Below, in pieces: positions 20,755 to 55,018 of a stretch of DNA of 55,018 nucleotides. The translations under genes and the position numbers were made by a program. This stretch comes from Lautropia sp. Lineage in GTDB: Bacteria > Pseudomonadota > Gammaproteobacteria > Burkholderiales > Burkholderiaceae_E. Every line of letters starts with the position of its first letter. Within the stretch, counting starts at the first letter, position 1. The notes under the pieces are model-generated. The model searched no databases, had not been told where the DNA came from, and was given only the letters and a program-made list of their open reading frames with translations. The stretch is taken from contig JAUNHU010000008.1 of assembly GCA_030523825.1 (NCBI GenBank), positions 1 to 55,018 on the forward strand, in the 5' to 3' direction.

Positions 20755-21780
20755 TCAGCATCCCTCCCGATGGATGAGCGCCAGCAGGAAGGGGGCCCCC
20801 AGCAGCGCGGTGACGATGCCGATGGGCAGCTCGGCCGGCACCACGACAATGCGCGCGCCCCAGTCAGCCGCGCACAGGATGAGCGCCCCCGAGACCATCG
20901 ACAGCGGCATCAATGCCCGATGCTCTGCCCCCACCAGCAGACGCATCAGGTGTGGCACCACCAGCCCGACGAAACCGATGGTGCCAGTGAAGGCCACCAG
21001 CGGCCCCACCAGCAGGGCCACCAGCAGGATGAGTTCACGCCGCAGCCGATTCAGGTCAAAGCCCAGATGCAGGGCCTCGCGCTCGCCAAGCAGAAGTGCA
21101 TTCAGCACACGCCAGCGAGCCATCAGGCAGAGGATGAGCAGCAGCGACCAGGGCGCGAGCCAGACGAGCACCGACCATTCGCCCCCCGCCAGACTGCCCA
21201 GGCTCCAGAAGGTGAGACCACGCAATTGTGCGTCGTCGGCCAGATAGGTGAAGACACCGATGAGTGCCCCGCAAAAGGCATTGACCGCGATGCCGGCCAG
21301 CAGGATGCTGGCGGCCCCCGGCGAGCGACGGCCCAGCCGCCACGCAGCCAGTGTGGCCAGCAGGCTGCCGCCGAAGGCCGCGCCAGCAACGGTCAGGCCA
21401 TGAACGCGATCGAGCCCCAGAATGATGGCACCCACGGCGCCGACGGCCGCACCGGAGGAGATGCCCACCAGACCGGGCTCGGCCAGCGGGTTGCGAAAGA
21501 GCGCCTGCATGACCGCCCCGGCCACCGCCAGGCCCGCTCCGGTGATGACGCCCAGCAGGATGCGCGGCAGGCGGATGTCAAAGAACACGCCCTGCCACAT
21601 CTGCAACTCGGCATCGTCGCCAGCAGCGCGCCACAGATCGGGCAGGCGGTCCAACGGAATCTGGACTGCCCCCGATGACGCAGCCCCCACCACCACAAGC
21701 CCCAGCAAGGCAGTGAGCAGCAGCAGGCGCCAGCCGAGCGCTGCGCGGCCGAAGGGCCATGCGCTTGTCACGCGCACCAC
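20755..21780 (-). CDS. hmuU: Haemin ABC transporter permease HmuU
   Basis: A FecCD/BtuC-type permease of about 341 residues with many hydrophobic segments. The family motif AGAVMQALFRNPLAEPGLVG and the ATPase-contacting loop IGFVGLVVPHLMRLLVG are intact. No ATG is available near the family start. GTG codons at 21780, 21777 and 21771 follow a CAGGT ribosome site, and 21780 gives a normal length; the frame is open further upstream but overlaps hmuT. The gene starts 55 bases after hmuT and 200 bases before hmuV. It is inner-membrane and forms the channel of the haem importer. Confidence 0.88.
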   Translation of the reverse strand: MVRVTSAWPFGRAALGWRLLLLTALLGLVVVGAASSGAVQIPLDRLPDLWRAAGDDAELQMWQGVFFDIRLPRILLGVITGAGLAVAGAVMQALFRNPLAEPGLVGISSGAAVGAVGAIILGLDRVHGLTVAGAAFGGSLLATLAAWRLGRRSPGAASILLAGIAVNAFCGALIGVFTYLADDAQLRGLTFWSLGSLAGGEWSVLVWLAPWSLLLILCLMARWRVLNALLLGEREALHLGFDLNRLRRELILLVALLVGPLVAFTGTIGFVGLVVPHLMRLLVGAEHRALMPLSMVSGALILCAADWGARIVVVPAELPIGIVTALLGAPFLLALIHREGC

Positions 21781-40526: not shown

Positions 40527-43500
40527 TTGAAAGCCTCGGACGACCAGATCCGGGTGCGCGGCGCCCGCACCCACAATCTCAGGAACATCTCGCTCGACAT
40601 CCCGCGCAACCAGCTGGTGATCATCACCGGGCTGTCGGGGTCGGGCAAGTCCTCGCTCGCCTTCGACACCCTCTATGCCGAGGGGCAGCGACGCTACGTC
40701 GAATCGCTGTCGGCCTATGCCCGGCAGTTCCTGCAGCTGATGGAGAAGCCCGATGTCGATCTGATCGAGGGACTCTCACCCGCCATCGCCATCGAGCAGA
40801 AGTCCACCAACCACAACCCGCGCTCCACGGTGGGCACGGTAACGGAGATCCACGACTACCTGCGGCTGCTGTTTGCACGCACCGGCACCCCCTACTGCCC
40901 CGATCACCCCGAGCAGCGGCTGGAAACGCAGACCATCTCGCAAATGGTGGACAGCATCCTGGCCCTGCCCGAAGGCACCCGGCTGATGATCCTGGCGCCG
41001 GTGCTCTCCAACCGCAAGGGTGAGCATGTCGACCTGTTCGACCAGCTGCAGGCGCAGGGTTTCGTGCGGGTACGCATCCGCACCGAAGGCGTTCATCAGG
41101 ACGAGGGCGAGATTGTCGAACTCGACCGCGTGCCGGCGCTGAACAAGCAGCAGAAACATTCGGTGGATGTGGTGGTGGACCGCCTGAAGGTGGCCGACAG
41201 CGCCCGCCAGCGGCTGGCCGAATCACTGGAAACCGCGCTGAATCTTGCCAATGGCCGCGTGATTGCGCTGCCGATGCCCGCGCCCGCCGATGCCCCGGCA
41301 GGCAACGAGCCATCCGACACCCGGCTTGCACAGGACAGCGCCGATAACGGCACCTCATCGGCGCCCCCTGCCGGAGACGGCAATGCCACGCAGGGCGACG
41401 CGGATGGCGCCCATCTGGTGCAGCGCCTGGGCAAACCGCTGGCCTTCTCCTCGAAATTCGGCTGCCCGGTTTGCAACTGGTCGCTGCCCGAGCTGGAGCC
41501 GCGCCTCTTTTCCTTCAACAACCCGCTGGGCGCCTGCCCGGAATGCGACGGCCTGGGCCACACGCTGTTCTTCGACCCGGCGCGCATCGTGCAGTTCCCG
41601 AACCTCAGCCTGGGTGCGGGCGCCATCCGCGGCTGGGACCGGCGCAACCAGTTCTACTATCAGCAGCTGCAGAACCTCGCCACCCATTACGAGTTCGACC
41701 TCGACCTGCCCTTCGAGGAACTTCCCGAAAAGGCGCGCAACATCATCCTGTTCGGCTCGGGCACCGAGAACATCACCTTCACCCACCTCAACCCCAGCGG
41801 CAAGCCCATCACCAAGGTTCAGCCCTTCGAGGGCGTGGTGCGCAATTTCGAGCGTCGCTATCAGGAAACCGATTCGGCCGCCATCCGCGACGAGCTGGCC
41901 AAGTTCCAGCACATGCGTACCTGCCCGGCCTGCAACGGCACCCGCCTGCGCATCGACGCCCGCCACGTGCGCGTCGGGCCGGCTGGCGCCGACAAGCCCA
42001 TCTGGGAAATCAGCGCCTGGACACTGGGCGAAGCCGCGCGCTGGTTCGAGAACCTGCAACTCGACGGCGCCCGCGCGGCCATCGGCGAGCGCATCGTGCG
42101 CGAAATCGGCAACCGCCTGCGCTTTCTCACCGATGTGGGCCTGGACTATCTTTCGCTGGAGCGATCGGCCGACACGCTCTCGGGCGGCGAAGCACAGCGC
42201 ATCCGCCTGGCATCGCAGATCGGATCAGGTCTGACGGGCGTGATGTACGTGCTGGATGAACCCTCCATCGGCCTGCACCAGCGTGACAACGACCGCCTGC
42301 TGGGCACGCTCGTGCATCTGCGCGACCTCGGCAATTCGGTGCTGGTCGTCGAACACGACGAGGACGCCATCCGTGCGGCCGACCACATCGTCGACATGGG
42401 CCTGGGTGCGGGCGAACACGGCGGCAACGTCATTGCGCAAGGCACGGTAGCCGACATCATCGCCAGCGACGAATCCCTCACCGGAAAATATCTTGGCGGC
42501 AAGCTGAAGATTGCCGTGCCCACCGAACGCAAGACTCCCGACCGCCGTCGCATCCGCATCGTCGGTGCTACCGGCAACAACCTGAAGGAAGCACACATCG
42601 ACATTCCCGTCGGCCTGCTGGTGTGCGTGACGGGCGTTTCGGGCAGCGGCAAGTCCACCCTCATCAACGACACGCTGTACAAGACGGTGGCGCAGCAGCT
42701 GTATCGCGCGCAGGCAGAACCGGCACCGTGCACCCGCATCGAGGGGCTCGACAATTTCGACAAGGTGATTGCCGTCGACCAGAGCCCCATCGGCCGCACG
42801 CCACGCAGCAACCCCGCCACCTATACGGGCCTCTTTACGCCCATCCGCGAACTCTTTGCCGAAGTGCCCGCAGCCAAGGAACGCGGCTATGGCCCCGGGC
42901 GCTTTTCCTTCAACGTGAAGGGCGGACGCTGCGAAGCCTGCGAAGGCGATGGCCTCATCAAGGTGGAAATGCACTTCCTCGCCGATGTGTACGTGCCCTG
43001 CGACGTATGCAAGGGCAAGCGCTACAACCGCGAAACCCTCGAAATCCACTACAAGGGCAAGAGCATTGCCGACGTGCTGGACATGACGGTGGAAGTGGCG
43101 CACGAATTCTTCTCGTCGGTGCCGCAGATCAGCCGCCGACTGAAAACCCTGCTGGATGTGGGCCTCGGCTACATCCGCCTGGGCCAGAGTGCCACCACGC
43201 TGTCGGGTGGCGAAGCACAGCGCGTGAAACTCTCGCAGGAACTCTCCAAACGCGATACCGGCCGCACCCTCTACATTCTGGACGAGCCCACCACCGGCCT
43301 GCATTTTCACGACATTGCACTGCTGCTGGAGGTCATCCGCAACCTGCGGGATCAGGGCAACACCATCGTCATCATCGAGCACAACCTCGATGTCATCAAG
43401 ACGGCCGACTGGATCATCGACATGGGGCCGGAAGGCGGCGCCGGAGGCGGCAGGCTGGTCGTGGCCGGCACGCCTGAAACCGTGGCCCAATGCGCCGAAA

Positions 43501-43544
43501 GCCATACCGGACGTTATCTGGGGCCGCTGCTGAAGCAAGGGTAA
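40527..43544 (+). CDS. uvrA: Excinuclease ABC subunit A
   Basis: UvrA recognises bulky DNA lesions and loads UvrB. The 1005-residue protein has two ABC modules: Walker [10 protein letters not shown] (near 33) and GVSGSGKST (near 705), signatures LSGGEAQRI and [11 protein letters not shown], and Walker [12 protein letters not shown] and [11 protein letters not shown]. The zinc modules [19 protein letters not shown] / CPECDGLG and CEACEGDG / CDVCKGKR are intact. An Asp/Ala/Gly-rich insert (about 249-293) makes it longer than the usual 940-960 residues. The start is TTG at 40527 ([17 protein letters not shown]); no ATG fits, although a GTG at 40551 is an alternative. An SOS box is not apparent. 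Confidence 0.97.
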
Positions 43545-46299: not shown

Positions 46300-47367
46300 A
46301 TGCTGAACAAGATCCCGCACGCCCCCATCGCTTCGGCCATTCTCCTGATGCTGGCAGCCTGTGGCGGCGGCGGTGGCAACGACGCCACGCCGGTCGCTGG
46401 CATCCATGCCGACACCACCAACAACGTCGCGGCCAGCAGCACGCAAACGGACAGCACCCGGGGCGGCACCACCTCGCCGGATGCTGCCAACGCCTCCAGC
46501 ACCTCCACCAATACGGCCGCTCCAGCCGCCGGTCATGACAATACCCATACGGCACACGCCCCTGCTGCAACCGACACCCCGGTGGCTGCCATCAGCCACA
46601 AGGGCATTCGCGGCGACGTGATGCTGACCGCCCTGGCACAGCTCACCTGCAACGACTACCTGTCGCTGGCCACCGCCATCGACGGCCCGCGTGTGACCGG
46701 TGCCGACGCCATCGCCATGCCGACCGTGGGCTCTGGCCATGCCCTGCGTGAGCCCAGCAACTACGTCCGTGCCGCAGACGCCCCGAACGTCATCTCCCCT
46801 CTGGCAGGCATCTGCGCCACCCATGTGTATCAGGCGCCCGCCAACGGCAGCTACGACCTCGACGTGTTTTCCAATCCCGTCTACCGCGACTCGCGGGGCG
46901 CCACCCGCGGCTTCCACTATCTGGACGCCGACTTCAGGCTGACGGTGACGGACACCGGCTTTTCGCTGGCCGGCACGGCTGAACTGGAAAATTCCGAAGA
47001 CAAGGGTCGCGGCTATCTGGGCGACGAGGCCCCCGGCGAACAGTCAATCACCGTTCGCAGCAATGGCGATTTCACCATGCTGAAATCCGGGCTCGCCAGC
47101 TTCGATACCTTCAAGGAATGGACGGATGGCCTGCATGGCATCCAGATGTCGGTGCTGCCGCTGCCGCAGCAGCCCAGCCGCTTCAAGCTGTGCTGGAAGA
47201 CGAAGATGCAGTTTGCCAACCGCCTGCAGTGCACCGCCTGGGAAGTGCCGGCCAGCTGGGAATATGGTCAGCCGCTGACCTACGTCGACCAGTATCTGAG
47301 CGATGACCGTTCGACCTACCCGAACGAGAACCGCGGCAGCCAGGCTCACTTCCACAACCAGTTCTGA
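46300..47367 (+). CDS. GIRGDV-family lipoprotein A, upstream of an ABC importer
   Basis: A 355-residue lipoprotein (lipobox LAAC, Cys21) with a long Thr/Ala/Ser-rich linker (about 25-100). The conserved domain starts with GIRGDVML (102-109); Cys117 lies 15 residues after the first Gly. Further Cys are 172, 298 and 311, and the last pair is 13 apart (FKLCW, then LQCTAWEVPASW). The same layout occurs in the lipoproteins at 51186, 52577 and, as far as it is visible, 54235, so this is the most divergent of four paralogues. I know no named family. It precedes an ABC importer by 534 bases with a terminator between, so it probably has its own transcript. Two disulfides and an extracytoplasmic position are inferred. 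Confidence 0.8.
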   Translation: MLNKIPHAPIASAILLMLAACGGGGGNDATPVAGIHADTTNNVAASSTQTDSTRGGTTSPDAANASSTSTNTAAPAAGHDNTHTAHAPAATDTPVAAISHKGIRGDVMLTALAQLTCNDYLSLATAIDGPRVTGADAIAMPTVGSGHALREPSNYVRAADAPNVISPLAGICATHVYQAPANGSYDLDVFSNPVYRDSRGATRGFHYLDADFRLTVTDTGFSLAGTAELENSEDKGRGYLGDEAPGEQSITVRSNGDFTMLKSGLASFDTFKEWTDGLHGIQMSVLPLPQQPSRFKLCWKTKMQFANRLQCTAWEVPASWEYGQPLTYVDQYLSDDRSTYPNENRGSQAHFHNQF

Positions 47368-47491
47368 TGACCTGACTGGCAAGCCGACCGAGATTGCCGT
47401 CTTGCCAGAGCCATTCAGGCCAGGCGCCGGCCGGATTCGGACGGGCAACATCGAAAGCCGGCCTGCCCGCATCACGCAACACACCCTATAT

Positions 47492-47533
47492 CGTCCTGCC
47501 TGCCCCGTACCCAGGGGCTGGCAGGACGTTTTT
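47492..47533 (+). terminator. Terminator of lipoprotein A gene
   Basis: CGTCCTGCC (47492-47500) pairs with GGCAGGACG (47520-47528), extended by an inner GCCCC/GGGGC pairing, and is followed by TTTTT at 47529-47533. Confidence 0.85.
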
Positions 47534-47901
47534 GCGTGACAGCACGCCATCATGGCCCCGGCAACACGCAATCACCCACCAATGGCGGACAAGGCCATGA
47601 CGCGGAAGCATGACAAGGCAGGGCCAGCCTTCGGGGCGCCTCGATGCGGATGTGCTGGCAGAAGCTGAACACCGTCTGGCCGTGTTCCTCGGGATAGCGA
47701 AATGACAATGCCTCTGGCCGGCACATTCCTGCCCGCAGCCCCGGGGAGCCGGCGAAAACCGGGAGAAGGGAAGCCCTGAACAGCCTGTGGTGTGCGCCGA
47801 AGGCGCGGGGAGCCCCCTGGCACTGTGCGGCTATTTGGCAACACGGCATGAATCGGAAGAGAATTGCGAATCCTTATTACCTGAATGGTATTTGCACGAT
47901 C
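47534..47901. other. Gene-free leader of the second ABC importer
   Basis: No convincing gene lies here. A plus-strand stretch (about 47760-47830) has GGGAA, then GGTG, a GCGCC-gaa-GGCGC hairpin and CCC-then-GCACTGT, which recalls parts of a cobalamin-riboswitch core. No AGCCAGGAGACC-like B12 box follows before the start, so I do not call a riboswitch. A minus-strand open frame (47550-47849) has coding-like codons early on but no recognisable product. A Fur-box-like stretch lies at 47865-47879. Confidence 0.4.
47865..47879. promoter_or_regulatory. Weak Fur-box-like site upstream of the second ABC importer
   Basis: TGCGAATCCTTATTA matches TGATAATCATTATCA at 11 of 15 positions and lies 23 bases upstream of the ATG at 47902. 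It would fit iron control, but the match is weak and the short distance means the site could be in the leader or the coding start if translation begins at 47848. Confidence 0.35.
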
Positions 47902-48987
47902 ATGTCCAATCCGAGCACTTTCAGATTTGCCCCTCCGATGGCTCGCGCCGTCCTGCCCATGCTGATGGCCGGTTTTGCTGCTGTCGTCATGCCCTCGGTC
48001 GGCGCTGCGGCAGATACCATCGCGGCGGGAACCAAAGCCGGCAAGACGCAGTACCCCCTCACCCTGGAAAACTGCGGCACAACCGTCACCTTCCAGAAAG
48101 CTCCGCAACGTGCCGTTGGCCTGGGCCAGAACAGCGCCGAGATCATGCTGATGCTGGGCCTGGAAAACCGCATGGTGGGCACCGCCTTCTGGCCGACCAA
48201 GGTGCTGCCGGAACTGGCCGATGCCAACGCCAAGGTGAAGCTGCTGACGGTGGAGTTTCCCACCTTCGAGTCGATTCTGGCCGAGAACCCGGACTTCGTC
48301 GCCTCGATGCTGCCCACGCTGATGGGCCCCAACAGCAAGGTGGCCAAGCGTGAAGACTTCAGCAAGCTGAAGATCGGCACCTACATGTCGCCGAGCACCT
48401 GCCTCGACGCCTCCAACAGCAAGGACGCCTATGGCAGCCGTGGCAACCTGTGGAACATGGAGATCATGTACAAGGAGATCGACGACATTGCGAAGATCTT
48501 CGATGTGCAGGATCGCGGCCAGAAGCTGATCGCCGACCTGAAGGCGCGCGAAGCCAGGGTCCGCCAGATCAAGACCAAGGGCGACAAGCCGCTGTCCTAT
48601 GTGTTCTGGTTCTCCAGCCCCTCGCCTTCGGCCGATGCCTACCTGGCCGGCAAGAACGGCGCTTCGGGCCAGATTGCCGACATGGTGGGCGGCACCAGCG
48701 CCATCAAGACCGAAACCGAATGGCCGACGCTGGGCTGGGAAGGCATCATCGCCAGCAACCCCGACGTGATCGTGGTTGCCCACCTCGACCGCAACCGCTG
48801 GGAGCTGGACAAGCCCGAGGCGAAGATCAAGTTCCTGACGACCGACCCGGCCACCAGCAAGATGCCGGCCGTTCAGAACAAGAACCTGTTCGTCATCGAC
48901 GGTCAGGCCATGAACCCCTCGATCCGCACGCTCTTTGGCGCCGAGGAACTGGCCAGACAGCTGAAGGACAAGGGGCTGGCCGAGTAA
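47902..48987 (+). CDS. ABC transporter substrate-binding protein (FepB/BtuF-like)
   Basis: The mature protein belongs to the TroA/FepB-type binding proteins. YPLTLENCGTTVTFQKAPQRAVGLGQNSAEIMLMLGLENRMVGTAFW is the family N-terminal lobe, and TEWPTLGWEGIIASNPDVIVV lies in the second lobe. The signal peptide (MARAVLPMLMAGFAAVVMPSVGAAA) fits the ATG at 47902 (361 residues) better than the ATG at 47848. This branch includes proteins annotated for iron-siderophore, cobalamin and F420-precursor transport. I cannot say which applies. The permease starts 21 bases after its stop, so they form an operon with the ATPase. No lipobox, so it should be free in the periplasm. Confidence 0.88.
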   Translation: MSNPSTFRFAPPMARAVLPMLMAGFAAVVMPSVGAAADTIAAGTKAGKTQYPLTLENCGTTVTFQKAPQRAVGLGQNSAEIMLMLGLENRMVGTAFWPTKVLPELADANAKVKLLTVEFPTFESILAENPDFVASMLPTLMGPNSKVAKREDFSKLKIGTYMSPSTCLDASNSKDAYGSRGNLWNMEIMYKEIDDIAKIFDVQDRGQKLIADLKAREARVRQIKTKGDKPLSYVFWFSSPSPSADAYLAGKNGASGQIADMVGGTSAIKTETEWPTLGWEGIIASNPDVIVVAHLDRNRWELDKPEAKIKFLTTDPATSKMPAVQNKNLFVIDGQAMNPSIRTLFGAEELARQLKDKGLAE

Positions 48988-49008
48988 AGACCGGCTGCAT
49001 CCAGACTC

Positions 49009-50025
49009 ATGCACCTGCTGCGATTCGGCGCCCTGATCCTTGGCGCACTGTTTGTCATTGGCCTGGTGGTGGGAATAAGCGTGGGCGTGGGCGACCTGCC
49101 CATTCCGCTCTCGACCACCTGGGCCGCCATCACCAACCAGCTGGGATGGACGGCCGTCGAGCTGAACCCGATCCATGAAACCGTGATCTGGGATTACCGG
49201 CTGAGCCGTGCGCTGGTGGCCGCGTTCTGCGGTGCCGGGCTGGCGCTGTCGGGCGCCATCATGCAGTCGCTGTTGCGCAATCCGCTGGCCGAGCCCTATG
49301 TGCTGGGCATTTCAGCCGGGGCGTCCACGGGTGCCGTAGCGGTCGTCATCCTGGGCCTGGGTGCCGGTGCCGCCTCGCTGTCGGGCGGCGCCTTCGTGGG
49401 AGCCTTTGCCGCCTTCTTCTTCGTGGCCATGCTGTCTGCCGGCATGGCAGGTGGTGCCGACCGCACCATTCTGGCCGGCGTGGCGGCTTCGCAGCTGTTC
49501 AACGCAGCCACCGCCTACATCGTTACCACGGCCGCCAATGCCCAGCAGGCCCGCGACGTGATGTTCTGGCTGCTGGGCAGCTTTGGGGCCGTGCGCTGGC
49601 CAGAATTCACGTTGATCTCGATCGTGGTGGGTCTGGGCCTCGTCGGCTGCCTGTTCTACACCCGCGTGCTGGACGCCTTTGCCTTTGGCGATGAATCGGC
49701 TGCGGCACTGGGCGTGAATGTCCCGCGTACCCGCCTCATCCTGCTCGCCATCACCGCCATCATGACCGCCACGATTGTCAGCATGGTGGGCTCGATCGGT
49801 TTCGTCGGTCTGGTAGTGCCGCACGTGGCGCGCTATCTGGTCGGACCGATGCACGCGCGCCTGCTACCGGCCTGCGCACTCATCGGTGCCATCTTCATGG
49901 TGGTGGCCGACATCGCCTCTCGCGCCCTCGTGCCCCAGCAGGTGATTCCCATCGGCGTGGTCACTGCCCTGGTGGGCGTGCCGTTCTTCTCGATCATCCT
50001 GTACCGGCTGCAGAGACCCTCATGA
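49009..50025 (+). CDS. FecCD/BtuC-type ABC transporter permease
   Basis: The 338-residue protein has the family motif SGAIMQSLLRNPLAEPYVLGISAGASTG and the ATPase-contact loop GFVGLVVPHVARYLVGP. About ten hydrophobic segments are seen. The ATG at 49009 starts 21 bases after the binding-protein gene. It is related to HmuU in the same window, so the genome has at least two importers of this type within 30 kb. Substrate follows from the binding protein and remains open. Confidence 0.92.
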   Translation: MHLLRFGALILGALFVIGLVVGISVGVGDLPIPLSTTWAAITNQLGWTAVELNPIHETVIWDYRLSRALVAAFCGAGLALSGAIMQSLLRNPLAEPYVLGISAGASTGAVAVVILGLGAGAASLSGGAFVGAFAAFFFVAMLSAGMAGGADRTILAGVAASQLFNAATAYIVTTAANAQQARDVMFWLLGSFGAVRWPEFTLISIVVGLGLVGCLFYTRVLDAFAFGDESAAALGVNVPRTRLILLAITAIMTATIVSMVGSIGFVGLVVPHVARYLVGPMHARLLPACALIGAIFMVVADIASRALVPQQVIPIGVVTALVGVPFFSIILYRLQRPS

Positions 50026-50148
50026 GCACATGCCGGGAAGCGCCTGCCCGGCATGAACGCGACGGACATGATGCCAATGCCCCGGCCATGAGCGATGCAG
50101 CGGAACAGACATGAACACAATCGATTCGATGACCCTTCCGGAGCGGCC

Positions 50149-50910
50149 ATGAGCTTCCGTGCAGAAAACCTCGTCTGGAAAATCGGTCGCAAGACCATCG
50201 TCGATGGCGTGAGCTTCAGCGCCAGACCCGGCAGACTGCTGGGTCTGCTGGGCCCCAACGGCTCGGGCAAGACTTCGCTGCTGCGGTTGCTGGCCGGACT
50301 GAAAATGCCTCATGCCGGTCACGTGCAGCTGGAAGACAAGGATATTCGTGCAATTCCCCGCCGCGCACTCGCCCAGCGCGTGGCCTTCGTCGAACAGCAC
50401 GCCACCACCACCGCAAACCTCACGGTGAAGGATGTCGTGAAACTCGGGCGTTTTCCGCATCGCTCGCTGTTTTCCGGCTGGACACGCGCCGATGAGGAGG
50501 CCGTGGAAAACGCCATGCAGGCAACCGGCATCGACCACAAGCAAAACGACCGCTGGCAGAACCTGTCGGGCGGAGAAAAGCAGCGCGCCCACCTGGCACG
50601 TGCGCTGGCACAGACGCCACGGGAACTGATTCTCGACGAACCCACCAACCATCTCGACATCCAGCATCAGCTGGGCCTGATGAAACTGGTGGCCGGCCTG
50701 CCGATGACCAGCATCATGGCATTGCACGATCTGAATCACGCAGCGATGTTCTGCGATGAGCTGCTCATCCTGAAGGCCGGCAAGGTGGTGGCGCAGGGCA
50801 AACCCGCCGACATCCTGACAGAAGACCTGCTGCACAGCGTATTTTCGGTGAATGCACGGATACGGGCATCGGAATTTCATTCAGGGCCGCACATTCATTA
50901 CCTGCCCTGA
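50149..50910 (+). CDS. ABC transporter ATPase of the FecE/HmuV type
   Basis: The 253-residue ATPase has Walker A GPNGSGKTS (35-43), the signature LSGGEKQRAHL, Walker B LILDEPTNHLDI and the H-loop ALHDLNHAAMF. I start it at ATG 50149 (MSFRAENLVWKIG); 124 bases from the permease stop. The three genes form a complete importer. Its C-terminal end (AQGKPADILTEDLLHSVF) is echoed by a decayed copy at 52256-52384. Confidence 0.92.
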   Translation: MSFRAENLVWKIGRKTIVDGVSFSARPGRLLGLLGPNGSGKTSLLRLLAGLKMPHAGHVQLEDKDIRAIPRRALAQRVAFVEQHATTTANLTVKDVVKLGRFPHRSLFSGWTRADEEAVENAMQATGIDHKQNDRWQNLSGGEKQRAHLARALAQTPRELILDEPTNHLDIQHQLGLMKLVAGLPMTSIMALHDLNHAAMFCDELLILKAGKVVAQGKPADILTEDLLHSVFSVNARIRASEFHSGPHIHYLP

Positions 50911-51080
50911 AGCGGCATCTTCCCTCAAGGGCTCGCCGGCTGTCTTCAAGAAGCCTGCTCCCTTCGCCGCAGACTCCTGCAGTCCCTCATCATTTTGTAA
51001 TTTCACGCAGGATTTTCTTGCCGTGTGATGGCACTCGCTGCCAGAAACACCCGATAAATGGCAGGTTTGTGAAAGTTCCT

Positions 51081-51091
51081 GTTTCACGGTT
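51081..51091 (+). promoter_or_regulatory. TTTCACG upstream element of lipoprotein B
   Basis: GTTTCACGGTT lies about 104 bases upstream of the lipoprotein B start, close to the 103 bases seen for the TTTTCACGCGACA copies upstream of lipoproteins C and D. The match is only TTTCACG plus position. It may be a shared operator or promoter part. Confidence 0.4.
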
Positions 51092-51185
51092 CACTAAAAA
51101 AATCCACCCCGTTCACGCAGGCAGGGTCTACTACGCAATCCCGATGAACACATGCGTTCCATTGAACGTACTGGAGAAAAACAGG

Positions 51186-52133
51186 ATGATGCAGTTCCCC
51201 CTGCGCCCGCCTCTGAGCGCCCTGACGCTCGCCGTGCTGCTTGCTGCGTGCGGTGGTTCCGGAAGCAACTCTGGCCCCGCTACCGGCAACGACATTTCTT
51301 CCGGCAATTCCGCCCAGACCGAAAAGGCCGATCCGCCCGCAGGACAGCCAACATCGGCATCCCCGGAAGCCCCCACGGCCCAGGGCGCACCTGTCGATGC
51401 CAATGGTGTGCGGGGCGATGTGCTGCTGAGCATGCTGGATCACCGCACCTGCCAGCACCAGACACTGAAGCCCGTAGCCTCTCAGGACGGGCCGGCGTTT
51501 TCTCCGGAGCAGCGTGCCGGACTGCCCGACGTGATTGCCGAGACGGGACTGGAGAGCCCCAGCAATTATCAGCCTGTGGCAGCAAACACCGGACAGGCAG
51601 CAGCCGGGAACTCACTCTGCAGCACGGCACGGTACAGCCCTTTTGATGATGGACAGGCCACATTGCAGGTAAAAACGCGAGCTGCAACCAGCAACGCCAT
51701 CAGACCCGCCAGCATCACGCTCAACACCCCCATCAGCGCCTCCGCCGGCACCGTCACGCTGGGCACCACACAGCAGATCGAAAACCCTGGCATCAACATC
51801 AGTGCAGCCAAGGCACTCGTCAGCGCCAGCTCCTACAGCTTCCAGACCAGCGCACGGGTTCCCTACGGCCGCCTGACCGAATGGAGAGACGGCAACGACT
51901 TCACCGCGCTTCAATTGCAGCCGGTACCGGGCTCGAAGCCCCAGCAGGTGAGACTTTGCTGGAACAGCCAGACGGTATTTTCACGCCAGCTGCACTGCCA
52001 GCAATGGGAGATTCCGAACGGCTGGAAACGAGGCGATCCGATCACCCTGAAAGGGCAGAGCCTCACCGAGGGGCGCTCGATTCAGGAAGGGGAAGCAGGC
52101 GCCGGCACCGTTTACTGGCGCTCGAATCCCTGA
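51186..52133 (+). CDS. GIRGDV-family lipoprotein B
   Basis: The 315-residue lipoprotein starts at ATG 51186 (GGAG site 9 bases away; a second ATG follows). The lipobox is LAAC (Cys22), then an Ala/Pro/Ser-rich linker to about 70. Conserved parts are GVRGDVLL (74-81), Cys89, Cys145, VPYGRLTEWRDG (225-236), VRLCW (Cys258) and LHCQQWEIPNGW (Cys271). Four Cys and spacing 13 in the last pair are the same as in paralogues A and C. Paralogue D shares SMLDHRTC near the first Cys and the PYG-x-x-TEW stretch, so B and D are the closest pair. It follows the ABC ATPase by 275 bases. No strong terminator lies in between, so partial co-transcription with the importer is possible. Confidence 0.8.
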   Translation: MMQFPLRPPLSALTLAVLLAACGGSGSNSGPATGNDISSGNSAQTEKADPPAGQPTSASPEAPTAQGAPVDANGVRGDVLLSMLDHRTCQHQTLKPVASQDGPAFSPEQRAGLPDVIAETGLESPSNYQPVAANTGQAAAGNSLCSTARYSPFDDGQATLQVKTRAATSNAIRPASITLNTPISASAGTVTLGTTQQIENPGINISAAKALVSASSYSFQTSARVPYGRLTEWRDGNDFTALQLQPVPGSKPQQVRLCWNSQTVFSRQLHCQQWEIPNGWKRGDPITLKGQSLTEGRSIQEGEAGAGTVYWRSNP

Positions 52134-52255
52134 AGCTCCGGTTGCGGCAAGTGCCGCAACAAATTTCCCAATCTCATGATGAGAAAAGCGGAAAAGACCG
52201 AAAAATCCGGGCCATGAGCGCTTGTCCGCAGCGGCCCGCCTTGTCCGCCGCTCCG
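52134..52255. other. Intergenic spacer after lipoprotein B
   Basis: A perfect hairpin (GTTGCGGC-aagt-GCCGCAAC, 52141-52160) follows the lipoprotein B stop but has no T-run, so it is a weak terminator at best. A TCTCATgATGAGA palindrome is at 52173-52185. The next part of the gap is the ATPase relic. Confidence 0.45.
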
Positions 52256-52384
52256 GCACAAGGACAACCTGCCGGAGCACTCACGGAAGATCTGCTGCGC
52301 AGCGGTTTTCAAGCGCCTACATGGGTACAGGCACCGAAATTTCCTCATGTGAAAAGCAGGCGTTGCATGAACCCCCACCGTTGA
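52256..52384 (+). pseudogene. Relic of an ABC ATPase 3' end
   Basis: Read in one frame to the TGA at 52382-52384, this gives AQGQPAGALTEDLLRSGF and then VQAPKFPHVKS. The first 18 residues match 13 of 18 in the C-terminal AQGKPADILTEDLLHSVF of the ATPase at 50149-50910, and at DNA level TGCTG and GAAATTTC-type stretches also align. No ATPase motifs lie upstream, so only the tail survives. The layout 'ATPase end - spacer - lipoprotein' is thus present twice (50910 to 51186, and 52384 to 52577), which suggests a segmental duplication with decay of the ATPase copy. Confidence 0.65.
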
Positions 52385-52576
52385 ATCACAGAACCTTTCT
52401 TCAGGTATCACGAAGAAACACTCTCAAGAAAAAGACAAACAAACAAAAGAGAAAGCGCGGACATTTGTTTGAGTTTTCACGCGACATGCACAGCACACGC
52501 ACAATTTTTGCGGTCTACTGCCACCACCTTTTGTTGCGTATCCGATCGAACAGATCGGGAAGGAGAGATATCTGAC
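52385..52576. promoter_or_regulatory. Promoter and leader of lipoprotein C
   Basis: An A-rich, T-poor tract (about 52409-52452) is followed by TTTTCACGCGACA at 52474-52486, exactly 103 bases before the start, as in lipoprotein D. A CCGATC-gaaca-GATCGG hairpin (52542-52558) ends next to the AGGAG ribosome site at 52561-52565 and could affect translation. The -35/-10 pair cannot be assigned with confidence. Confidence 0.5.
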
Positions 52577-53599
52577 ATGAGCAAGAAGAAACTGCATATC
52601 CCGCTGACCGCCGCCGCACTGGCCATATTGCTGGCAGCCTGCGGTGGGTCGGGCGGTGATGGCGCCAACAGCACTGGCTCTTCCGGTGTGAAGGACGCTG
52701 CAGCCAACGCTCAGACACCTGCTGCCGACACGGCCGCCCCTGCTACAAATGCGCCGGCACCTGCCGCCAGCCCCGCCAATGCACCCGCACCGGCTGCCAA
52801 CACCCAAGTGCCGGGCTCCGTTGCCCCCACCTCTCCCCGGGCCACACCGGTCGCAGCAGCCGCCACGCCCATCTCGGCAACCGGCATTCGTGGTGACGTG
52901 CTGCTGGGCATGCTGGAACAGCAGCCGTGCAGCAACAGCTGGTTCACGCCCGTGGCAGGCCCCGATGGCAGCAACCATTCGGCTGGCCAGGTCAACACCT
53001 ATGCCAATGCCGAGCTGGGCAACTACACCGACCGCACCGACATCCACGTCGTCCACACCATCGGCTGCTCGGGACAGACCTATGCACCGGTTCAGGCCGG
53101 CGAGCACACCTACAGGTTCGGCAATGGCTATTTCGGCCGCTTCAATGGCCCCCCGCACGCCGAAATCCGCCATACCGCGCTCAACATCCCCGTCACGGTC
53201 AGCGATCAGGACGTGGTGCTGAGCAAGGACATGAAGTCCTACGCGCCGAGAACGGAGACCGAGCCGGGCGGCGCTGTCGACATGAGCGCTGACGCCGAAC
53301 TCCGCCTGGCCTACAACGCCGAAATCCCGTTTGGCACGGTCATGCACTGGAAAGGCCCTAACGCCCAGTACGTTCACATGTTCATCGACAAGGGTGACGG
53401 CAGCGACCCCAACAAGGTGCGGCTGTGCTTCGACAACAACATGACCAACGTGAAGCAGCTGCAGTGCATCAGCTGGAAGGTGCCGGCCGACTGGCAGCCG
53501 CATCAGGAGAAGCTGGAAGATGTCGAGCAGACGCTCATCAGCGATCGTTCGGTGTTCCCCGGCAAGAGCGGTCATTCCTACTGGAAAACTACCAGGTGA
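52577..53599 (+). CDS. GIRGDV-family lipoprotein C
   Basis: The 340-residue lipoprotein starts at ATG 52577 (MSKKKLHIPLTAAALAILLAAC, Cys22). The linker (about 25-100) is Ala/Pro/Thr-rich. The motif GIRGDVLL is at 103-110 and Cys118 lies 15 after its Gly. Cys164, Cys284 (VRLCF) and Cys297 (LQCISWKVPADW) complete the four; the last pair is 13 apart. The middle (about 150-250) differs from B and D and has many aromatic and His residues (EHTYRFGNGYFGRF), a place where ligand specificity may vary. It ends with its own terminator. Function is not known; a ligand-binding lipoprotein for the neighbouring importer is inference. Confidence 0.8.
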   Translation: MSKKKLHIPLTAAALAILLAACGGSGGDGANSTGSSGVKDAAANAQTPAADTAAPATNAPAPAASPANAPAPAANTQVPGSVAPTSPRATPVAAAATPISATGIRGDVLLGMLEQQPCSNSWFTPVAGPDGSNHSAGQVNTYANAELGNYTDRTDIHVVHTIGCSGQTYAPVQAGEHTYRFGNGYFGRFNGPPHAEIRHTALNIPVTVSDQDVVLSKDMKSYAPRTETEPGGAVDMSADAELRLAYNAEIPFGTVMHWKGPNAQYVHMFIDKGDGSDPNKVRLCFDNNMTNVKQLQCISWKVPADWQPHQEKLEDVEQTLISDRSVFPGKSGHSYWKTTR

Positions 53600-53709
53600 T
53601 GCCTGATGGCAATTCCTGAGCCCTCGCCAGTGTTACAGACGCTGGCGAATTCAACAGGAACAGCGGGCACAAGCCACTGACAGCGTCTGCTGGCAGACTT
53701 CCCCGCAGA

Positions 53710-53747
53710 CGCGGCCCCACCATTTCGGGTGGGGGGCCGCGTTTTTC
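53710..53747 (+). terminator. Terminator of lipoprotein C gene
   Basis: CGCGGCCCCACC (53710-53721) pairs with GGTGGGGGGCCGCG (53729-53742) with a small bulge, and TTTTT follows. It is a strong intrinsic terminator about 110 bases past the stop. Confidence 0.85.
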
Positions 53748-54131
53748 ATGTGCCCTGTCATTTTTAAGGGGGAGACATTTCGCCCGCGCCGTTCAGATTT
53801 TCGTGCCTGGCACCAGAGCCGAGCGTTACAGCGATGGCGCATGCAGGCATCCTGACAGGAGACAGTCAACTGTACAGAAGAACATCGGACAGCAGCGCGC
53901 AAGCGCGGGGGCACTTTCGCCTGACCCTTGTTTTCAAGATGTTTTCGCGCACCACGCCGCGCGATTTGTTCGCGGCAGAACATTACCCGACCACTGGTCC
54001 GTCGATCGAATCAGCTTCACCACGTGCACAAGACACCGACTTTCCATCAAGACATGATTTCAAGACGGACATGAGTCATGAACCGATGACATCGACTTTT
54101 CATTTCTGGCAATAGCAAGATTTTGTTTCGT

Positions 54132-54144
54132 TTTTCACGCGACA
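54132..54144 (+). promoter_or_regulatory. TTTTCACGCGACA element upstream of lipoprotein D
   Basis: This 13-mer is identical to 52474-52486 upstream of lipoprotein C, and both lie exactly 103 bases before their ATG. The flanks start with TTTGTTT in both. It may be an operator for a shared regulator or part of the promoter. Confidence 0.55.
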
Positions 54145-54234
54145 CTGTCACGCCGTTTACTTCCCTGCGTTCTACTCATGGCCACGCACTAAATGCCAAT
54201 CGTTCCATGCAAATCGTGAGGGAGAAAACACGAC

Positions 54235-55018
54235 ATGACCATCAGAAATCTTCAGGCTCCTCTGACTGCCGCAGCACTGGCTGTGCTGCTGGCCGCTTGC
54301 GGCAGCGGCTCTGGCACCGGTGATTCCGGCGGTACCGGAGGCACCGGCGTAGCCCCCAAGGATGCTGGCGCCACCCCGGCACAGAACACCCCTGCTCCGG
54401 CCGAAAATGCACCGGCAGCAGGCCAGCAGGCCGCCGAAGCCGAGGGCGCCCCGATCGACGCCAACGGCATCCGCGGCGACGTGCTGCTGAGCATGCTCGA
54501 TCACCGGACATGCCATCACAAAAACCTCAAACCGGCCGCCTCGTACAACGGCCCACTGCTGAGCGACGCGCAGCGCGGCAACACCCCGAACGCGACTGCC
54601 GGCATCGCCCTGCAGGGCGCCCCCAACTACAAGCTCAAGCCCGGCCAGCAGCCCCCTGTCGGCATGCCGGGACATGACGTGCCCTGCACGTCCAGCCTGT
54701 ATGAATACACAGCGTTCGACGACGGCACCGCGACAGTGATACAGGACAGTACCTTGTACCGTGGCCTGAGAGAGCCGGTCGATCCCAGCAAGCGCCCCAT
54801 CCGCGGTGCCGTTACCGAAACGCAGATCACCGTGTCGGGTACCAACGTCACGCTGAGTGCCGAGCAGAAACTCACCCGAATCGATGAGCGCTCGGAAGCA
54901 CAGACCTTCGTCAGCGCCAACGCCCATACCTTCCAGACCAACGGACGCATTCCCTATGGTCTCGTCACCGAATGGCGCCAGGGCGCGGAGTTCAACGAGC
55001 TGATGGTGCTGCCGGGCG
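54235..55018 (+). CDS. GIRGDV-family lipoprotein D (cut by the window edge)
   Basis: The frame opens with ATG 54235 (GAGGGAG ribosome site) and runs off the end after 261 codons. The lipobox is LAAC (Cys22) in a leader nearly identical to C (PLTAAALA-x-LLAACG). A Gly/Ala/Pro-rich linker reaches about residue 70. GIRGDVLL is at 78-85, Cys93 lies 15 after its Gly and Cys151 follows. SMLDHRTC and IPYGLVTEWRQG match lipoprotein B most closely. The C-terminal Cys pair expected by homology lies outside the window. It is the third lipoprotein downstream of the importer; more may follow. Confidence 0.82.
   Translation, partial: MTIRNLQAPLTAAALAVLLAACGSGSGTGDSGGTGGTGVAPKDAGATPAQNTPAPAENAPAAGQQAAEAEGAPIDANGIRGDVLLSMLDHRTCHHKNLKPAASYNGPLLSDAQRGNTPNATAGIALQGAPNYKLKPGQQPPVGMPGHDVPCTSSLYEYTAFDDGTATVIQDSTLYRGLREPVDPSKRPIRGAVTETQITVSGTNVTLSAEQKLTRIDERSEAQTFVSANAHTFQTNGRIPYGLVTEWRQGAEFNELMVLPG

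Follow-up and report, generated by a model that had tools for sequence, protein, structure and literature searches.

The stretch of DNA analyzed here (the window) comprises positions 1 to 55,018 of contig JAUNHU010000008.1 of a Lautropia sp. assembly (GCA_030523825.1). Near its end lie four genes encoding predicted lipoproteins, designated A, B, C, and D, and between A and B are the three genes of a FecCD-type importer (Table 1). A to D are members of an undescribed family, and most of the Lautropia species that we examined carry many copies of it dispersed around the chromosome.

Table 1. Lipoprotein genes of the window and the neighboring genes discussed in the text (aa, amino acids; ORF, open reading frame; AF2, AlphaFold2)
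Feature	Position	Strand	Description	Basis
Lipoprotein A	46300..47367	+	355 aa, single-domain four-Cys member	ORF; domain match E 4.9e-60
Lipoprotein B	51189..52133	+	314 aa, single-domain four-Cys member	ORF; AF2 model of domain
Lipoprotein C	52577..53599	+	340 aa, single-domain four-Cys member	ORF; AF2 model of domain
Lipoprotein D	54235..55018	+	First 261 aa in window; gene continues across assembly gap	ORF
Importer periplasmic binding protein	47902..48987	+	Neighbor outside the family	Pfam Peripla_BP_2 1e-26
FecCD-type permease	49009..50025	+	Neighbor	Pfam FecCD 1.2e-87
Importer ATPase	50095..50910	+	Neighbor	Pfam ABC_tran 9.2e-35
uvrA	40527..43544	+	Neighbor with the genus-conserved lipoprotein cluster beside it	Cross-genome comparison

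Four paralogous lipoproteins

A preliminary description of the locus, made from the sequence alone, had given A to D a common motif, G[IV]RGDV[ML]L, a cysteine 15 residues past the first Gly of that motif in all four, and a terminal cysteine pair 13 residues apart in the three complete copies, A, B, and C. All three features stood up to a letter-by-letter check. The motif is GIRGDVML at residue 102 of A (cysteines at 21, 117, 172, 298, and 311), GVRGDVLL at residue 73 of B (21, 88, 144, 257, and 270), GIRGDVLL at residue 103 of C (22, 118, 164, 284, and 297), and GIRGDVLL at residue 78 of D (22, 93, and 151 in the part within the window). The first cysteine of each protein is that of the lipobox (LAAC-G). 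An alternative ATG lies 3 bases upstream of the start of B.

The four proteins can be aligned across the whole domain. When B was compared with its own genome, it matched D with an E value of 7.9e-44, A with 1.8e-22, and C with 4.3e-20; because of these values the similarity is attributed to homology and not to chance, which bears out the proposed common origin. A Pfam scan of A to D gave no model above the cut-off, and neither Pfam nor NCBIfam has a model that scores above the cut-off for the family, which agrees with its having been called unrecognized.

Lipoprotein D is split by a 100-N assembly gap directly after the end of the window (contig C84, 55019-55118), and the remainder of the gene follows the gap. 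Because the same 55 bases flank the gap on either side, the interruption of D is probably an artifact of joining in the assembly rather than a biological break. Past its domain, the remainder of D (L021) has a long Pro-Ala repeat as a C-terminal tail, which is found in none of A, B, and C. Also beyond the window, at about 56171-56958, is a fifth family copy with an altered motif, GVQGILLL, which is truncated by the end of the contig.

The family in Lautropia and its distant relatives

Nine Lautropia genomes were compared, that of the window (G000) and eight relatives (G001 to G008), using a profile built from 23 domains of the window's genome. The profile gave 27 domain matches in the window's genome and 8, 10, 26, 31, 31, 32, and 34 in seven of the relatives. 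With up to 45 candidates scored per genome, these counts may be lower bounds; scoring all candidates gave 31 matches in G001 and 26 in G007. The eighth relative, G004, which is in 720 contigs, had no match at 1e-5 with this profile and weak matches in later searches. Family members were present in 79 of 82 regions fetched from eight genomes, giving 129 ORFs (a number that includes split pieces, such as both parts of D) and 164 domains; 35 of the ORFs are two-domain forms, and the other 94 have a single domain. The fetched regions cover part of the places that the family occupies (in G001, 6 of 17 places are outside the fetched set).

Outside the genus, relatives are few. We searched 74 genomes of the same taxonomic family, 65 of them from outside Lautropia, and among these 65 the 23-domain profile matched only G011. 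Extending the profile with sequences from G011 and G004 gave five matches in G011 and one in G015 (5.0e-9), the values for G011 and G004 being partly circular since their own sequences were in the profile. The G011 proteins that we inspected are lipoproteins with a Pro-rich arm, and three are in tandem on one contig. These relatives (L236, L238, L240, and L243), which are from another genus, are divergent, and the tandem three have a further C-terminal stretch past the shared core. Two wider draws were made, with up to six candidates scored per genome. Seven of 399 genomes from the order matched, five of them Lautropia; the matches in the other two were weak and partial and look like chance. 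None of 397 other genomes from the phylum matched at 0.001. Thus, in this survey the family is confined to Lautropia plus a few divergent relatives, and none of the libraries searched contains a model for it.

In a midpoint-rooted FastTree phylogeny, both members come from one genome in 14 of the 53 sister pairs, which indicates that recent duplications have been added to older copies common to the species. The family would have grown by tandem and dispersed duplication inside Lautropia.

Anchor, arm, and domain

A lipobox pattern was found in 98 of the 129 family ORFs; at least two of these look false, and some genuine ones were missed. By this measure, the family members appear to have the feature that identifies bacterial lipoproteins, a signal peptide ending in the lipobox Cys. 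In 76 of the 129 ORFs both the lipobox and the motif could be placed with an arm of ≤260 residues, and these were scored. Immediately after the lipid-bearing Cys, 71 have Gly, 4 have Ala, 1 has Ser, and none has Asp. Under the Lol +2 rule, which varies between bacteria, lipoproteins sorted to the outer membrane are those without Asp after the Cys, and so the scored proteins are predicted to be sorted there. The arm is 29 to 258 residues long (median, 76.5), and 69% of its residues are Ala, Gly, Ser, Thr, or Pro. For PglL (PF15864), which would O-glycosylate such an arm, neither the nine Lautropia genomes nor the controls had a match.

The cysteines of the domain fall into two pairs. Of 161 domains aligned, 157 have the C-terminal pair, 1 has half of it, and 3 lack it. 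The spacing within the pair is exactly 13 residues for 102 of these 157 domains and between 12 and 30 for the others. The N-terminal pair is complete in 41 domains and wholly missing from 120, with no domain having just one of the two cysteines. In all 39 placeable rows of these 41, the first Cys of this pair is 15 residues from the motif Gly. By topology, the four-Cys domains, 41 in all, group into a single clade of the midpoint-rooted tree. Because the N-terminal pair is all or none and the C-terminal pair is nearly always present, each four-Cys domain likely has two independent disulfides; the all-or-none pattern lends support to the disulfide-type cysteines of the preliminary description.

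That description had also pointed to a variable middle. We calculated the ratio of nonsynonymous to synonymous substitution rates (dN/dS) for 32 pairs of domains, all between genomes, >60% identical, and not independent of each other. Pooled dN/dS was lowest in the motif (0.19), followed by the C-terminal part (0.28) and the middle (0.31), so the middle is indeed more variable, by a small difference. Single values above 1 occurred twice (1.47 and 1.33), both in the C-terminal part and in the two domains of one gene pair. From these ratios, the family genes look functional and under overall purifying selection, with the middle slightly freer.

Seven columns are nearly invariant across 93 domains (W, C, C, W, P, W, W), none of them of a kind usual in catalysis. 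AF2 models of the domains of B and C, for which the input alignment consisted of the four window sequences, are mostly beta following one short helix; their confidence scores (predicted local distance difference test, pLDDT) were 73.8 and 62.9, respectively. Comparison of the folds of these models gave no convincing relative, and a PDB sequence search with the 23-domain profile gave none up to an E value of 1.

The conserved W, C, and P and the lack of catalytic-type residues are the reason that we take the domain to be a binding or structural one. Together with the lipobox, the Gly after the Cys, the long arm, and the Cys pairs, they point to a protein anchored in the outer membrane. We therefore favor a reading in which A to D are outer-membrane lipoproteins whose flexible arm carries a mostly beta, disulfide-bonded domain with a noncatalytic binding or structural role, and we put its chance of being correct at about even. 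The lipidated Cys would anchor each protein, most likely in the outer membrane; the arm, composed largely of Ala, Gly, Ser, Thr, and Pro, would carry one or two mostly beta domains of roughly 240 residues, each closed by one or two disulfides. Each paralog would then present a different version of the domain, probably either on the surface of the cell or against its wall; the domain may have a binding role.

The strongest competitor, which we nevertheless consider unlikely, is that these are periplasmic structural or envelope-stress lipoproteins, with an arm that crosses the cell wall, a domain bound to peptidoglycan, capsule, or porins, and no outward face. The lipobox, arm, and disulfides fit this explanation equally well. 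In addition, no exporter could be tied to the family: in the nine genomes a search for Slam (PF04575), the exporter of neisserial-type surface lipoproteins, gave weak matches in four and none in G001, G004, G006, G007, and G008 (nor in any of 14 controls). What speaks against a periplasmic part is the high and variable copy number, from 8 to 34 domains, which would be unusual for a structural component, as would the fast divergence: A and the protein most similar to it in the G003 cluster share 47% identity, versus 85% for UvrA from the same pair of genomes.

Genomic neighbors and known systems

Family genes are found beside uvrA in seven of the nine genomes, with two other genes intervening in the window. 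(The gene at 40527..43544 is presumably uvrA, judging by its sequence.) In G004 and G008 no listed family match is near uvrA, one of the 10 matches in G008 being unlisted. Other family copies adjoin various genes, in positions conserved between species. The cluster beside uvrA would be one old site of the family.

We also asked what else recurs next to the family. Among 45 groups of neighbors listed (475 neighboring ORFs), five occur in two regions of one genome. One of these five consists of three small ORFs at two places in the window's genome (L027:12397-12828 on the minus strand plus two others) that look like PIN-type toxins. Such neighbors, and the many divergent and dispersed copies, would suit immunity or exclusion lipoproteins acting against phages or neighboring bacteria. 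However, no other recurrent toxin-like neighbor was recognized in the 45 groups; none of five proteins scanned matched in PADLOC; and no relative of the family was confirmed in viral contigs. Hence, we consider an immunity role improbable.

The three Pfam matches in Table 1 confirm that a complete FecCD-type importer lies among the lipoproteins, as had been described, 534 bases from A and 278 bases from B. The permease has a close counterpart (78 to 100% identity) in four of the nine genomes, G000, G001, G003, and G007; after these, the closest Lautropia permease reaches 55%. The importer is inside the lipoprotein cluster and on the same strand in G000. In G007 and G001 it is encoded on the opposite strand, convergent to the lipoproteins, and lies at the distal end of the uvrA-lipoprotein cluster; the intervals between the ORFs, taken without their stop codons, are 13 and 74 bases, respectively. 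In G003 the importer occupies a different contig, and the 18 kb read there contains no family gene. Close importer counterparts are lacking from G002, G005, and G006, each of which has the uvrA cluster. Among the best 80 of 348 matches, permeases from Halomonas and Rhizobium and their kin are 78 to 84% identical to that at 49009-50025, as close as those of other Lautropia, which suggests that the importer permease has moved horizontally between lineages. A second FecCD-type permease, at 20767-21723 of the window on the minus strand, is 40% identical to the first; the family copy nearest to it is A, about 25 kb away.

The association is not general. The importer is in 3 of the 79 regions with family members, and a relative of the permease is within 4 kb of family members in those three regions only. 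Conversely, the family domain is absent from all 80 importer loci inspected (the best 80 of 348, one of them from Lautropia). For the near-complete genomes G007 and G001 we grouped the complete match lists by hand into 13 and 17 family places. One of the 13 and two of the 17 are within 10 kb of any FecCD-type permease, and 2 of the 30 are within 5 kb; the second G001 place is about 9 kb from a different importer. A rough estimate of the number expected by chance is just under one place per genome within 10 kb. The binding protein family of such importers, Peripla_BP_2 (PF01497), had no match in 93 family members scanned.

The conserved linkage, on the same strand or in one operon, that marks an importer accessory is thus missing, and the importer is most likely a positional neighbor of the lipoproteins, not a partner; it would stand beside the old uvrA site by position in some species. 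Weighing against this conclusion is the fact that three of the four genomes that own the importer (G000, G001, and G007) have it at the lipoprotein locus, which leaves some room for a loose joint role. Even so, the idea of the preliminary description, that the lipoproteins capture the importer's ligand and hand it over to the binding protein, is very improbable, given homologs that are mostly away from such importers, an outcome that the description itself had set as refuting the idea (with 3 of 79 regions and 3 of 30 places near one), an importer that has its own binding protein and gaps on both sides, and convergent orientation in two of the three linked genomes.

We return, then, to outer-membrane lipoproteins with a binding or structural domain. 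It is possible, and we suggest it tentatively, that they belong to a repertoire, undescribed and shared across the genus, of diversified lipoproteins for surface display, in which four-Cys and two-Cys domains on flexible arms of variable length bind different partners (neighboring bacteria, host glycoproteins, or nutrients) and species are set apart by copy number; the relatives in two other genera would point to an older beta domain that expanded in Lautropia. Lautropia is common, and to our knowledge little has been described of its surface. No title on such a family in Lautropia was among the literature matches listed (titles and the beginnings of abstracts); such abstracts name Lautropia as an oral bacterium. 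The family, which reaches 34 domains in one genome and matches no Pfam or NCBIfam model above the cut-off, is a sizeable unannotated share of the Lautropia envelope. A profile made from the present alignments would allow it to be annotated, and its genes are a defined set for deletion and localization.

Among the closest known systems are the neisserial surface lipoproteins fHbp, which binds factor H, and NHBA, the heparin-binding antigen. The binding proteins of FecCD-type importers resemble the family in being encoded beside one lipoprotein cluster in three genomes but, as noted, differ from it in sequence. The Mlp lipoproteins of Borrelia and the lpl cluster of Staphylococcus are presumably comparable paralogous families. 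The likeness, which is one of description and not of sequence, is that all are lineage-restricted, multicopy lipoproteins with unknown or diverse binding roles; the Lautropia family differs from them in having two Cys pairs and both one- and two-domain forms.
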